A DNA stretch of 32,784 nucleotides from Fimbriimonadaceae bacterium (GTDB lineage: Bacteria > Armatimonadota > UBA10988), in assembly GCA_020850355.1 (NCBI GenBank), contig JADZEX010000079.1, positions 1 to 32,784 of the forward strand, read 5' to 3'. The notes below the pieces were generated by a model. That model was not told where the DNA came from, ran no database searches, and saw only the letters and a program-made list of their open reading frames with translations. Position numbers and translations under genes: made by a program. Positions 18,699 to 23,699 of the stretch are shown here, in pieces. How positions within the stretch are numbered: position 1 is the stretch's first letter; each line of letters opens with the position of its first letter.

Positions 18699-18726
18699 GA
18701 GCGCTCGGCCCGCCGGTCGAGCGCTC
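18699..18726. terminator. Bidirectional hairpin between convergent genes
   Basis: GAGCGCTCG at 18699-18707 and CGAGCGCTC at 18718-18726 are perfect inverted repeats (9-bp stem, 10-base loop). The hairpin lies in the 46-base gap between the convergent secreted-protein and GH16 genes and touches the GH16 stop codon. It lacks a T tract, but position and symmetry favour transcription termination in both directions. Confidence 0.55.
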
Positions 18727-19649
18727 TACGGCGCGGCGGCCGGGCGCTGGTAGACGCGAGCGTAGTCGACCTCGTAGACCAGCGGCGAGGTGGCCGGGCC
18801 GGGGTCGCCGCCGGGGCCGCCGATCGCCAGGTTGAGGATCAGGGCGTGGGGCTCGCGGAAGGGATGCACCACCTGCGACCACGGCGTCTGCGGGTTGCGG
18901 GCGACCTCGTGGGTCACTTCGTTGAGCAGCTCGTCGTCACAGAGGATCTGCGTCTTGGAGTCGGAGCCGACCAGCCGCCAGACGTGGAACTTGCGCAGCC
19001 AGTCGGGGTCGCGGTTGAGGAACCAGCTCAGCCGGGGCCTGTTCTGATCGCCGTGCTGCGGGTTCTGCCAGGCGTGCCAGTGCGCGTTCCACTGCTGCGT
19101 GGTGCCCCAGGCGAAGTTGGCCAGGATCCGGCCGCCGTAGCACTCCATCAGGTCGACCTCGCCACCGTGCGGCCATTGCCCGGGGCCGGTCGTCCAGATC
19201 GCCGGGAAGTAGCCCGGCTGCGGGCTCAGGCGGGCGCGGACGACGATCTGCACGCGGTCCAGCGGCCAGGCGAACTTGCCCCAGGTGTTGAGCGACGAGG
19301 AGGTCCACTCGGCGAACTCCCGCTGCCGCCGCCAGTCGCCGCTGCCAGCCTCGTAACGCGGGTTGGGCACTCGTTCGCGGCGCCCCTCAATCACCAGCAG
19401 CCCGCCGCGCACGGTGGCGTTCTGGGGCTGGTACCACTGCGCCTCGTTGTTGCGGACGAAGCCGTTCTCGAAGTTCCACCTGGCCGGATCGGGCGCGCCG
19501 TCGCCGTCGAACTCGTCGTGCCAGACCAGCTCGTGGCCGGGCACGGGGTCGATGCTGGTGACGGGCAGCCGCGCCGGGTCCTCGGGCGCCTGGCCGACCA
19601 ACGGCAGCGTCAGCAGCAACAGCAGGACCAGCGCCAGCAGCTTCAGCAT
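18726..19649 (-). CDS. Secreted glycoside hydrolase family 16 enzyme
   Basis: A 307-residue protein with a leucine-rich signal peptide (MLKLLALVLLLLLTLPLVG) and a single GH16 domain. The opening ELVWHDEFDGDGAPDPARWN and the catalytic motif GGEVDLMECYG are typical. In E164-V-D-L-M-E169 the first Glu is the expected nucleophile, D166 the helper and E169 the acid/base. GH16 enzymes cut beta-1,3/1,4-glucans, agarose, carrageenan or xyloglucan by a retaining mechanism; the exact substrate cannot be told. The final strand VYEVDYARVYQRP is the usual end. The ATG at 19649 has GGAGG upstream and a good promoter at 19673-19702; longer in-frame starts lack both. It works outside the cell or in the periplasm and is probably one of several glycan-active proteins of this locus. 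Confidence 0.92.
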   Translation of the reverse strand: MLKLLALVLLLLLTLPLVGQAPEDPARLPVTSIDPVPGHELVWHDEFDGDGAPDPARWNFENGFVRNNEAQWYQPQNATVRGGLLVIEGRRERVPNPRYEAGSGDWRRQREFAEWTSSSLNTWGKFAWPLDRVQIVVRARLSPQPGYFPAIWTTGPGQWPHGGEVDLMECYGGRILANFAWGTTQQWNAHWHAWQNPQHGDQNRPRLSWFLNRDPDWLRKFHVWRLVGSDSKTQILCDDELLNEVTHEVARNPQTPWSQVVHPFREPHALILNLAIGGPGGDPGPATSPLVYEVDYARVYQRPAAAP

Positions 19650-19672
19650 GGTTCGCCTCCACCCCCGCGGCG

Positions 19673-19702
19673 AGTCTAGCGGCGGGAGCGGCGTGGCGTC
19701 AA
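19673..19702 (-). promoter_or_regulatory. Sigma70-type promoter of the GH16 gene
   Basis: On the minus strand TTGACG (19702-19697) and TAGACT (19678-19673) are 18 bases apart, matching five and four of six consensus bases. Transcription would start near 19666, leaving a short leader that contains the GGAGG site of the GH16 gene. This supports the start at 19649. Confidence 0.5.
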
Positions 19703-19729
19703 GGACGTCGGCCGGAGTGGTGCGCTGCG

Positions 19730-19979
19730 GACTCACGCGGTGGGTCAGCAGACACCAGACTCACGCAGAGGCGCAGTGGAGATAGACAACTAGTAGCAGC
19801 CTCACCCGGCGGGGGTATACTATGAGACCAGGGACTCACGCAGAGGCGCTGAGGCGCAGGGGAGATAGACAACTAGTAGCAGACTCCCCCGGAGGGCCAA
19901 GACCAGGAGAACAGGGACTCACGCAGAGGCGCGGAGGCGCGAGGGAGATAGACAGCTAGTAGCGGACCCACGTGGTGGG
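19730..19979. repeat. Tandem array of a 75-83 bp unit alternating with small hairpins
   Basis: The 393-base gap between the GH116 and GH16 genes (19650-20042) holds three imperfect units starting at 19758, 19833 and 19916. Each runs GACTCACGCAGAGGCGC, then GGAGATAGACAACTAGTAGC (third copy: one A-to-G change). Units 2 and 3 contain a second GAGGCGC octamer that unit 1 lacks, which accounts for the 8-base length difference. Four small hairpins alternate with the units: 19732-19744 (CTCAC/GTGGG), 19804-19816 (ACCC/GGGT), 19884-19894 (CTCC/GGAG) and 19967-19979 (CCCAC/GTGGG). Their sequences differ while pairing is kept. A partial unit (GACTCACGC) begins at 19730. I see no gene in the gap; the remaining 63 bases to the GH116 stop show nothing clear. 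Confidence 0.75.
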
Positions 19980-20042
19980 GAGAGAGTCGACGGTTGCTGT
20001 TTGGCGCCGCTGGGTGCCTGGGATGGGATGGTGCTGGGGTCG

Positions 20043-23000
20043 TCAGGCAGAGAGCACGGCCTGAACCGTCTCTGTGGCGATCACCTCCGCGCCCGGCCGG
20101 ACGATGACCCGTTCGCCGGCGCGCTCCAAAGTGGCTGGCACGGGGCGGCCGTCGACCGTCAGATCGACGTGGGTCAGCGTTGGGGCGGCCGCCAGGACCA
20201 GCTCGCGCAGCCGCAGGCGGCCGTAGCGGATGTCGACCGTGGCGGTCTGGCGGTCGGTGATGGTCTGCGTGAAGAGGCCCCAACACTCGGCGCCTAGGAA
20301 GACACTGCGGTGGTCGGCCGGCTGCCAGCGCGGCAGGAAGCCCAGGCGGCCGGCGGGCCCGTCCAGAACCAGGCCCTGCGCGGCGGTCAGCAGGCTGCCA
20401 GAGCTGAGCGCCCGGGCGTAGAACTTGCCGCACTCCAGCTCGTTGTAGGGGTTGCCCCCGGGTCCCGAGTTGAGCGTCTCGCGGCGGCGACCGTCATAGC
20501 GCGAGCGTGCGGCGGACACCAGGCGGACGCCCTCGGCGACCATGCCCTCGTAGATCAGCAGCCCCGCCACGGCGTACTCGATGCCGGTCCAGACCTCGTC
20601 GGCGTAGATGATGAACGGCTCCGGTCGCCCGCCGTGGGGCCAGGTACACATCAGCAGACCGGGCTCGTCGTCCAGCACATAGCGCCGCGGGGCCTGCTTG
20701 AAGCCGTGGAAGTTGGCGCGAAAGTTGTGGGCCAGAATCTGCCGCAACGCGGCGCGCACATGGTCAGTCGGGTAGAGGTAACCGAGGTCGAGCTGGTGGG
20801 CCCACCACTGCCCCAGCAACTGGTCACTGTGGCAGCCGGTGTGGTAATCATGCGCCCCGCGGGCGTCCGGGCGTTGGATGTAATACTCGTGCTCGGCGTG
20901 CCACAGCCGCTCGTCCTGCAGGCGGCTGCCGCGCTCGCGCAGCTCGCCGTAACGCCCTGCCGCGGCGGTGTCGCCGACGGTCTGCGCCATCTGCCGACAG
21001 GCCGCCAGCGCGCTGAGGTACTGACTGCCGCAGAAGGTGTGCTGCCCGCTGGTGGCGCAGTCGTAGGTGTTCCACTGGTGGCCGGTCAGGACGCCCTCGC
21101 CGGCGGCGTCGAAGGTGGCGATCAGCCAGTCCATCGCCTTCTTGACCTGCGGCCAGAGCTGCCGCAGGAAGCTGTCGTCGGCACTGGTCTGATGCGCCCG
21201 TAGGGCGCCTTCGATCACCGCGCAGTGGCCGTCGACAAACGCGCCGTGGCGGCTGTGCTGGCGGTGCTGCGTTTCGCCGCTGTCCAGCAGATAGGTCACC
21301 AGGTCCGAGGTGCGCAGGTTGCGGTCGAGCTCGGGCCACAGCCGGGCGTGGGTCTGGGCGTAGTTCCAGACATGGGTGCAGTTCAGCGGGCAGCAACCGT
21401 AGCAGCCCTCGTACCCCGCGAAGTAGCCGGCTTCGGTCCAGAAGCAGGTCGGCCCGCGGGGGATCACCGCCTGCGAGGTGAAGGCGTCCAGCAGCGCCGC
21501 GGGCAGGTTCGACTGGTAGACCGTCTGGTGCCAGCGCTCGGTCCAGCCCCATAGTTCGGGCAGCCGGTCGAGCACGTCGCTGACCACCGCACCGGCGTCG
21601 CCGTAGCGCTGGCTGTAGAAGTTGCCACGGTGGCCGAAGCGCTCGACATTCGGGAAGTGCCAGCCGATCACGAAGGTGACCGTCTCGCTGGCGCCGGGGG
21701 CCAGCGTGAAGCTCGGCGCCAGCGCGCAGTTGTGGGTCTCGCCGGCGGGCGTTGGCCCGGCGCTGGCGCTGCCGGGCAGCGTCCCGCGGGTCAGCAGCTC
21801 AGCGGTCAGCTCGGCGGCGGCGGTCCAGCCGGCCTCGGCCGCGGCCGGCCGGTCGCAGGCCAGGGCCAGCGTGCCGTAACGGGTCGCCGCGGTCACCAGC
21901 CGCTGCCCCGCCGCCAGCGGCACGCCGCGGACGGCTCGCAGCAGCGGTTCGATCCAGGCGTCTGGCAGCGTCTCGGCGAGGCTGACGATCCAGCGCGAGC
22001 GGCCGACCGGCAGTGACAGCAGCACCGGCTCACCGCGCACGGTCGCCAGCACCTCGGCGCCGCCGCTCAACTGCAGGCCCTTGAAGGCCACCCGCCGGCT
22101 GACCGCCCAGCCCGCCGGATCGCCCAGCACAGCGCGCCCCGCAGCGGTTAGCTCGACGCTCTGCAGGCCGGCCGAGGAGACCTCTTCGACGGTCTGAAAG
22201 CGCACCGGCAGCGCCGCCGCCAGGTCGCTCAGCGGGCCTCGCAGGCGGTACAGCCGATCCGGTGGCAGGTCGGCGAAGACAATGTGATCGACGTTGAGAT
22301 GGCCCCAGGCGTCGGAGCTGCGGTCGACGATTTGCAGGCGCGCCTCTTGCCCGATCAGGTCGCCGACGTCCCACGAGGCCGGCTCCAGCCGCTCGTTGTT
22401 CCGGCCGGTGGCGGTCCGCACGACCCGGTCGCCGATCAGCAGGTTCAGGCAGGCCCGCTGCGGGTCACTACCGCCGCCGATCAGGAAGCCGATGTGGCGC
22501 CGGGCGATCTTGAAGGGCGGTGAGGTCAGCGTGCCCTGCGGCCCATCGCCGGGGCGGAAGGTGTTGACCAGCCCGCGGCCCAGGAAGCCGCTGACGGCCT
22601 GCTGCCCGGCCTCGGTGCCGCGTGACGGGCCAGGGCCGAAACCCTCGCCGGCGACCTGCCATTGGCCGTAGGTCTCGCCCTCGAAGTCCTCGAACACTTC
22701 CAGCGCGTCCCAGGCGCCCTGCTCCGCACGGATCGCCGTCAAGGCCTGCCAGAAGCCGGCGCCGGCGCTGCCGACGAGCAGGCCGCCGCCCTGCTCGGCC
22801 AGCCCGCTGGCGGCCTCGATCACGGCGCCGGCGACGCGGTCGGCGGTCAGGTCGGCCAGGCTGCCGAGCTGGCCGAGCCAGTAGACCGGCGGTCCGGCGA
22901 CCTCCGGCCCGTGCGCCTCACGGACCGTCAGCGGGCCGTCCGGCGGACGGGTCCAGTCGCGGCCGAGGTGGACCACGGTCCGCCCGGCGCCCTGCTCGAC

Positions 23001-23699
23001 GCGGCCGACATTGCCGCCGTAGGCGGGCAGCCGCACCCCGTCGAGGCCGGTCTCACCGCCGCAGCCGACCGCGTTCTGGAGGCTCGCCAGCAGCGTCACC
23101 GCCGCCGGCAGCTCACCGGGATTGGTGACGGTCACGCGCAGCAGCACCACCGGCAGGGCCGAGTTGGCGGCGTCCAGCGGCAGCAGCGGCGAGGTCGCCT
23201 CGAGCCGCACCCGCACCGGGAGCTGCTCGTCGCGGTAGTGCAGCCGCGCGATGGGGTAGCCACCCTCAAAGGTCAGCGCCTGCATCGGGCGCAGGCCGGC
23301 GTCGCTGACCGTCTGCAGCACCCGCGCCACCGGCCGCCCAGCGCCGACCTGCGCGCGGATCGCCAGGAAGCTGTCAGGCACCCGCGCCTCGGTGCTGTTG
23401 TTGAAGATCTGCCAGACGCCCAGGCGACCGCTGCCTTCGAGCCAGATCGTCCCGGTGCCCAGCCCGCCCAGCGGCATCGCCACGGCCGCGAGATGCTCCC
23501 GCTCGTAAGTCCGCGGCGTCTGCAGCGGCGGCTCGCCGGCCCCCCGGCGGCGCGGCAACCCCGGCAGCGCCGCCCGCACCCCCGAGCTGGCCAGCGCACA
23601 ACTGGCCGCGGCGACGGCCAGCGTTTGCAGAAACTCCCGCCGCGGCACCGCCGCCAACGGCTGGCCACACTGGCCCGAGCAACCGCAATCACGCGTCAT
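20043..23699 (-). CDS. Tat-exported GH116-type glycosidase with inserted carbohydrate-binding-like module
   Basis: A 1218-residue protein. The cysteine-rich N-terminus is followed by a twin-arginine signal (RREFLQTLAVAAASCALASS), so it is probably folded before export. The start of the GH116 beta domain is clear (AVAMPLGGLGTGTIWLEGSG, then LGVWQIFNNS). Residues about 335-478 hold a separate beta module (FEDFEGETYGQW ... GTLTSPPFKIARRHIGFLIG ... GHLNVDHIVFADLP) known from many secreted sugar-active proteins. The (alpha/alpha)6 catalytic domain (about 700-1130) shows CPLNCTHVWNY, GCHSDQLLGQWW, IIYADEVWTGIEYAVAG and NPYNELECGKFYARA. GH116 includes beta-glucosidases, beta-xylosidases and N-acetylglucosaminidases. 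Near residue 870 it reads LTGHQWNTYD where I expect an acidic E-G before N-T-x-D, so activity is uncertain. GGAGG precedes the ATG. Confidence 0.85.
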   Translation of the reverse strand: MTRDCGCSGQCGQPLAAVPRREFLQTLAVAAASCALASSGVRAALPGLPRRRGAGEPPLQTPRTYEREHLAAVAMPLGGLGTGTIWLEGSGRLGVWQIFNNSTEARVPDSFLAIRAQVGAGRPVARVLQTVSDAGLRPMQALTFEGGYPIARLHYRDEQLPVRVRLEATSPLLPLDAANSALPVVLLRVTVTNPGELPAAVTLLASLQNAVGCGGETGLDGVRLPAYGGNVGRVEQGAGRTVVHLGRDWTRPPDGPLTVREAHGPEVAGPPVYWLGQLGSLADLTADRVAGAVIEAASGLAEQGGGLLVGSAGAGFWQALTAIRAEQGAWDALEVFEDFEGETYGQWQVAGEGFGPGPSRGTEAGQQAVSGFLGRGLVNTFRPGDGPQGTLTSPPFKIARRHIGFLIGGGSDPQRACLNLLIGDRVVRTATGRNNERLEPASWDVGDLIGQEARLQIVDRSSDAWGHLNVDHIVFADLPPDRLYRLRGPLSDLAAALPVRFQTVEEVSSAGLQSVELTAAGRAVLGDPAGWAVSRRVAFKGLQLSGGAEVLATVRGEPVLLSLPVGRSRWIVSLAETLPDAWIEPLLRAVRGVPLAAGQRLVTAATRYGTLALACDRPAAAEAGWTAAAELTAELLTRGTLPGSASAGPTPAGETHNCALAPSFTLAPGASETVTFVIGWHFPNVERFGHRGNFYSQRYGDAGAVVSDVLDRLPELWGWTERWHQTVYQSNLPAALLDAFTSQAVIPRGPTCFWTEAGYFAGYEGCYGCCPLNCTHVWNYAQTHARLWPELDRNLRTSDLVTYLLDSGETQHRQHSRHGAFVDGHCAVIEGALRAHQTSADDSFLRQLWPQVKKAMDWLIATFDAAGEGVLTGHQWNTYDCATSGQHTFCGSQYLSALAACRQMAQTVGDTAAAGRYGELRERGSRLQDERLWHAEHEYYIQRPDARGAHDYHTGCHSDQLLGQWWAHQLDLGYLYPTDHVRAALRQILAHNFRANFHGFKQAPRRYVLDDEPGLLMCTWPHGGRPEPFIIYADEVWTGIEYAVAGLLIYEGMVAEGVRLVSAARSRYDGRRRETLNSGPGGNPYNELECGKFYARALSSGSLLTAAQGLVLDGPAGRLGFLPRWQPADHRSVFLGAECWGLFTQTITDRQTATVDIRYGRLRLRELVLAAAPTLTHVDLTVDGRPVPATLERAGERVIVRPGAEVIATETVQAVLSA

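Follow-up and report, generated by a model that had tools for sequence, protein, structure and literature searches.

What is the short repeat array that lies between a GH16-like gene and a GH116-type gene in this Fimbriimonadaceae genome: a private structure serving its neighbour, or one copy of something that occurs elsewhere? The window, by which we mean the whole stretch of 32,784 nucleotides analysed, is contig C83 of a 6.67-Mb draft genome, and it carries three direct repeats at this site. The features of the locus are listed below.

18726–19649, minus strand: the GH16-like gene of the preliminary description, its start codon 81 bp from the array
19730–19746, plus strand: compact palindrome GACTCACGCGGTGGGTC, similar to the parent element's ends and the one notable hairpin of the four
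19758–19774, plus strand: head block of unit 1, a left arm of the element with one octamer step
19781–19797, plus strand: block B of unit 1, GATAGACAACTAGTAGC, locus-specific
19799–19815, plus strand: second hairpin of the preliminary description, folding no better than random stretches
19833–19857, plus strand: head block of unit 2 with an extra octamer, TGAGGCGC
19864–19880, plus strand: block B of unit 2
19882–19898, plus strand: third hairpin of the preliminary description, folding no better than random stretches
19916–19940, plus strand: head block of unit 3 with an extra octamer, GGAGGCGC
19947–19963, plus strand: block B of unit 3, with one change
19965–19981, plus strand: fourth hairpin of the preliminary description, not significant (10.6% of shuffles equal it)
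20043–23699, minus strand: GH116-type gene with PF12215 and PF04685 over cut-off, whose end lies across the array from the GH16-like gene

The three head blocks (GACTCACGCAGAGGCGC) start at 19758, 19833 and 19916, all on the plus strand, and the three copies of block B (GATAGACARCTAGTAGC) start at 19781, 19864 and 19947, where 0.01 matches would be expected by chance at up to 3 mismatches. TRF reported a single array at 19764–19971 with a period of 83, 2.5 copies and a score of 290. In units 2 and 3 the head is followed by an xGAGGCGC octamer, which is missing from unit 1 only, and the head spacings are therefore 75 and 83 bp. The block positions and TRF thus bear out the original description of three tandem units with two conserved blocks and an octamer difference.

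A genome search for both blocks, as had been proposed, separated them clearly. The head block (TCACGCAGAGGCGC) occurs at dispersed genomic loci, with 28 matches at up to 2 mismatches, including the three in the window, against 2 for the reversed-pattern control. Block B is confined to the window array: three of its five matches lie there, the two further ones carry 3 mismatches each, the reversed control gave 33, and none of the intact element copies is matched. Block B as a dispersed family was therefore rejected. We read the arm forms from the head-match loci, leaving out the match at C34:71129, and from an arm scan of seven stretches. Intact copies turned out to be inverted repeats of tandem octamers. 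Inverted arm pairs are found on C28 (three pairs), C34 (two places) and C87, and forward-only arrays on C49, C83 (the window) and C85. The C87 copy is of mixed or intermediate form, with four forward heads closed by one reverse arm; C9 has a single degenerate head, and the match on C29 is unlike an arm. The arm cluster on C28 encloses the sole GxxExxY gene found in the draft genome (C28:37250-37600).

The window holds three arms on the plus strand, with 0–1 mismatches to TCACGCRGAGRCGCRGAG, built of C[AG]C.[AG]AG octamers starting TCACGC. The arm scan found no second, inverted (minus-strand) arm near the array within 4 mismatches, and no GxxExxY gene lies inside it. Because the inverted second arm is missing, we label the window copy a partial relic and not an intact element. 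MITEs are short, gene-less, dispersed sequences with terminal inverted repeats that are related to a gene-bearing version. Gene-less copies of the GxxExxY type resemble them in each of these respects, but their octamer arms vary in copy number and the associated gene is not a known transposase. Terminal inverted repeats are present in the intact copies on C28, C34 and C87 and absent from the window copy.

These observations make it very probable that the window array is a degenerate, tandemly amplified left-half relic of a dispersed octamer inverted-repeat element. Since intact copies are inverted pairs and the window copy is forward-only, we read it as a left half without its partner, multiplied together with a local spacer. 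The arms of the parent element consist of about three head-to-tail octamers (TCACGC-RRAGRCGC-RRAGRCGC-RRAG). The right arm would have been lost at this site. The left half may then have been multiplied, along with its locus-specific spacer, by slippage at the directly repeated octamers or by unequal recombination between them. The preliminary description had named homology to a simple mobile repeat as an observation that would speak against it. What we found comes close to this, the units being arms of a dispersed, GxxExxY-associated inverted-repeat element.

The association between the gene and the arms was examined across bacteria. In the arm test, 250 bp upstream of a gene were locally aligned with the reverse complement of 250 bp downstream, no arm sequence being assumed, and arms were called significant when they beat all 100 shuffles. 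Within the phylum we took 31 loci, namely the genome's own copy and 30 from the best matches in 68 of 291 genomes; three with short flanks were left out. Flanking inverted repeats were detected at 25 of the 28 testable loci, compared with 0 of 51 in the shifted control. A set of named loci, the best 80 of at least 575 confirmed stretches with one peptide pattern, gave inverted repeats at 65 of 78 testable loci; two were left out, and L089, whose upstream flank is partly masked, was retained as a miss. For the same best 80 of at least 575, the controls gave 2 of 140 (shifted) and 3 of 71 (neighbouring ORFs), genes being compared with 100 shuffles and controls with 50. By their record titles, the named loci include Proteobacteria, Verrucomicrobia, Bacteroidota, Chloroflexota, Cyanobacteria, Acidobacteria and Planctomycetes. 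A single GxxExxY gene is thus bracketed by such arms in many phyla. Significant arms were missing at 3 of the 28 phylum loci and at 13 of the 78 named ones from the best 80.

Gene and arrays also tend to occur together. The gene is found in 68 of the 291 phylum genomes and long octamer arrays in 24; it is present in 19 of the 24 array genomes versus 49 of the 267 others (Fisher P 1.9e-9, a value that ignores relatedness). Five of the 24 array genomes have no gene, and 49 of the 68 gene-bearing genomes have no long arrays. The reversed-pattern control for these arrays was non-zero (22 in G020 and 1–4 in eight other genomes), in part because a tandem octamer resembles its own reversal. We compared the units of 88 GxxExxY arms, from 24 of the 25 significant phylum loci and 64 of the 65 significant named loci (again among the best 80 of at least 575); L079 and L152 were left out, the latter being unlike octamers. 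Of the 88, 79 have the C[AG]C.[AG]AG core, exact or as a close variant, on either strand. The arm period was 8 in 36 of the 88, and in 32 no period was found. At one locus of a same-family relative (L053, G001:C50), the GxxExxY gene is accompanied by arms of another unit type, CCACAGAGGACACAGAG, so the unit type can differ within a family.

The gene in the C28 cluster belongs to the GxxExxY family (TIGR04256; PDDEXK_3, PF13366), over the family cut-offs. In an alignment of 58 sequences, D62, E72, K74 and Q86 were invariant and Y90 was conserved in at least 90%. The RecB/Cas4 active-site pattern is D...ExK...QxxxY, and these residues fit it. A structure model of the protein (pLDDT 95.9) matched 4ic1 (SSO0001) best among PDB entries (Z 9.7, rmsd 3.6, 98 residues), which we take to be a Cas4 protein. 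The best Foldseek E-value was 3.3e-3, with no match at 0.001, and a PDB sequence search with the GxxExxY profile gave no match. Matches to Cas4 profiles were weak, below cut-off where one exists. With PADLOC, the Sphingomonas protein matched RTasPDDEXK, a model of a PD-(D/E)XK protein associated with reverse transcriptase, best (E 1.5e-6), ahead of the Cas4 models (1.2e-3 and weaker), and the protein of the window's own genome matched Cas4 best (8.4e-4). The modelled structure indicates that the GxxExxY protein is a Cas4-like PD-(D/E)XK protein with a restriction-endonuclease-like fold. The gene is under purifying selection, with a median dN/dS of 0.18 over 753 pairs from 45 copies, one genome being counted twice (L136 and L253 are the same place). 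In the portions of the open-licence literature available to us, texts that name GxxExxY do not mention flanking repeats, TIGR04256 was not found, and PF13366 appeared only in work on Arctic microalgae.

Sphingomonas allowed a closer comparison, in sets of 61 and 121 genomes drawn from a larger group. The gene-bearing element of sphingomonads lies between a putative fabD and a putative fabG, names taken from reading the sequence. Among 30 loci, the best matches to one species' fabD, 26 hold the element, one holds another insert, and three have just 16, 25 and 58 bp, counted from the end of the fabD alignment. In the set of 61, the placement relative to fabD–fabG was achieved for 58 genomes; the gene is present in 26, 24 of them at this site. 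Because the gene-bearing element is stable there in 24 of 26, we see no recent movement of it. At the empty sites the spacers are too diverged for a target-site duplication to be read. The gene is mostly single-copy, alongside up to dozens of gene-less arm copies; arm copies reach 108 per genome, and reversed-pattern matches were 0 in all 61. Of the 26 gene-bearing genomes, 23 have five or more arms, versus 3 of the 35 that lack the gene (P 1.4e-10, which is not a count of independent events because the genomes are related). On the fabD tree, gene-less, arm-poor genomes are interspersed among arm-rich ones. Three gene-bearing genomes have few arms (0, 0 and 1), and three without a detected gene have 9, 28 and 32.

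Among the places listed, many arm pairs have a spacing of about 110 to 130 bp and some are nested, as at L291 (G292:C1:93300-94100), L292 (G299:C1:191800-192500) and L295 (G020:C264:3100-3500). Outer and inner arms of nested elements differ in unit type, a sign of successive insertion, and in G020 an octamer pair surrounds repeats of other unit types. The left arm of the G292 gene has a 19-mer whose exact sequence is found at 9 further places in that genome and in none of the 24 arms of G293; the corresponding 19-mer of G293 is found at 2 more places there and in none of the 36 arms of G292. At L119, L136, L291 and L292 the left arm starts at a TGA or no more than a few bases from it; this TGA is the fabD stop in the first two and a possible stop in the others. 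Insertion beside stop codons may be a target preference. In G331, a genome with 1 arm, the fabD–fabG spacer (L262) contains an insert of 475 bp that has no intact GxxExxY frame and is probably a decayed element.

Do the two arms of an element change together? We placed arm changes by parsimony on a tree of the element's own gene, using 26 of 31 Sphingomonas elements; four with 9-bp arm variants and one with a degenerate left end were left out. Of 32 left-arm and 31 right-arm changes, 17 on the left coincided by branch and column with a change on the right, 16 of them to the matching base. Under column permutation the mean was 2.4; none of the 5000 permutations came to 17, the highest value being 12. 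Whole-element replacement alone should not yield coinciding changes, given that the tree was built from the protein encoded within the element. Such changes could reflect either selection on pairing or conversion between the arms. The latter, in which gene conversion and not selection on pairing keeps the arms of intact elements complementary, is a serious prospect, if one to which we give somewhat less than even weight: conversion would also take coinciding changes to the same base on the same branch, as seen for 16 of the 17, but 15 of the 32 left-arm changes have no match on the right, which fits tolerated drift and incomplete conversion alike.

As a specificity control we chose TIGR02436, presumably a four-helix-bundle protein. 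Thirty loci (L214–L243) were taken from the best matches in 76 of 151 genomes and two were left out; 23 of the 28 testable genes lie between inverted repeats of like architecture. The copy in the window's own genome is L238 (G000:C69:27617-27940). The candidate statement that GxxExxY is the sole gene found in such arms was rejected on this result. Since the TIGR02436 arms are alike, GxxExxY is not the only family with this architecture, and its gene may be a passenger. Two protein families thus share one architecture, each with its own unit, and represent either a wider class or genes riding on repeats that are moved otherwise. Among 24 TIGR02436 loci counted for units (at L214, 1 of 100 shuffles was as good), the period was 7 in 15 and the GxxExxY core was present in 2.

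We regard it as rather unlikely that the arms spread by host recombination or an unrelated transposase with GxxExxY as a passenger, a reading that rivals the mechanism and not the relic interpretation. The similarly built 7-mer arms of 23 of 28 TIGR02436 genes and the three Sphingomonas genomes with 9, 28 and 32 arms and no detected gene are in its favour. However, the core is family-specific (79 of 88 GxxExxY arms, the named loci being the best 80 of at least 575, versus 2 of 24), and so is the period (8 in 36 of those 88 versus 7 in 15 of 24). Furthermore, arm number tracks the presence of the gene in Sphingomonas, and the arms of gene-bearing elements co-vary.

REPINs probably owe their spread to RAYT transposases, and an analogous division of labour can be considered here. 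From proximity, co-occurrence and co-variation we infer that the nuclease acts on the arms, and the analogy with REPIN/RAYT suggests that it also moves them. The enzyme would recognise its own arms, probably folded into a cruciform or hairpin, and by its activity would spread gene-less copies in the way proposed for RAYT and REPINs. Cyanobacterial short tandemly repeated repetitive (STRR) heptamers are dispersed tandem short units whose function is unexplained. The 7-mer arms of TIGR02436 are likewise tandem short units and may explain such old heptamer repeats, whereas the window family consists of 8-mers and goes with GxxExxY. In the partial text of the published account available to us, REPtrons and TIRtrons each comprise a gene between palindromic or inverted repeats, plus dispersed gene-less copies of the repeat that often form inverted pairs and clusters (PMC3733652). 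As far as that text goes, our elements resemble REPIN/RAYT and TIRtron systems in all of these features. They differ in enclosing a PD-(D/E)XK nuclease (PF13366/TIGR04256) and not an HUH tyrosine transposase, the gene in the C28 cluster being TIGR04256/PF13366, and in having arms of tandem octamers, the GTAG tag not being a feature of the family. In the portions of the open-licence literature available we found no account of octamer or heptamer arm repeats, and an earlier description elsewhere is possible.

The most far-reaching interpretation is a tentative one, which we place just short of an even chance. It envisages trans-phylum minimal elements in which a Cas4-like nuclease gene sits between octamer arms, together with non-autonomous, nesting arm pairs mobilised by that nuclease. 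They would be a PD-(D/E)XK-based counterpart of RAYT and REPIN, alongside a parallel heptamer class around TIGR02436. Extruded as a cruciform, the arms would be bound or cut by the nuclease, and arms and enzyme would co-evolve.

We return to the hairpins of the window. Four homologous stretches of 17 nt, aligned in register, start at 19730, 19799, 19882 and 19965. The hairpin at 19730–19746 has a folding energy of −15.5 kcal/mol, a value reached by 2.9% of 1000 dinucleotide shuffles and by 7% of the 33-nt stretches sampled across the window. The window is GC-rich, and hairpins 2, 3 and 4 were judged against random stretches from it: 62%, 77% and 47% of sampled 27-nt stretches fold equally well. 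In register, 22 of 28 base-pair cells in the four copies are paired; pair 6-12 is broken in two of the four, and a two-sided change is seen once, at pair 2-16. Random mutation of copy 3 as the null for pairing retention gave P=0.001, and that of copy 0 gave P=0.28. Compensatory pairing among the four hairpins is unconvincing, as the two nulls disagree. The preliminary description had reported four hairpins that keep pairing while their sequence changes and had suggested selection on structure. The four homologous stretches exist; the kept pairing is not borne out, three of the four being random-like, and neither these folds nor the two P values demonstrate such selection. Varied sequence with kept pairing is instead a property of the intact-element arms in Sphingomonas. 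The proposed folding of both strands gave no better result than shuffles for either (z −0.76 and −0.36), and an Rfam search over 19500–20200 returned only a chance-level match outside the array (19548–19620, E 1.4).

The same data bear on the proposal that the array is a functional RNA or protein-binding element controlling the GH16-like gene, whose Pfam match is below cut-off only (SKN1_KRE6, 19.3 versus 30 bits). The array sits 81–330 bp upstream of the start codon, and one of the four hairpins beats chance. Against this, hairpins 2–4 are not significant, the whole region folds like shuffled sequence on both strands, Rfam gave nothing above chance, and the head block is also found elsewhere in the genome. 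In the same-family relative G001, the GH16 homologue is 68% identical, its upstream gene order differs from that of the window, and no array is present within the 951 bp upstream that we examined. The suggested influence on GH16 thus found no support in the relative, an effect of the array on neighbouring genes is unlikely, and we consider control of the GH16-like gene highly improbable. It is scarcely credible that the array represents a GTAG-tagged REP family, since block B, which ends in GTAGC before a short palindrome so that GTAG precedes small palindromes in 3 of 3 units (as in the GTAG-tagged REPs described in the part of PMC3733652 available), is confined to the window array with a control of 33, hence is not a dispersed family of tagged palindromes, and the palindromes are weak.

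Taken together, the array is more likely a member of a little-studied, possibly mobile family of tiny elements than a private regulatory element. Seen in this light, there is nothing unusual about the window array, which is a decayed relic next to a glycosidase gene. Octamer and heptamer repeats of this kind occur in many bacterial genomes, and the link to a nuclease family offers a testable agent for repeats that have been unexplained, while TIGR04256, a family named only by its motif, gains a function to test.
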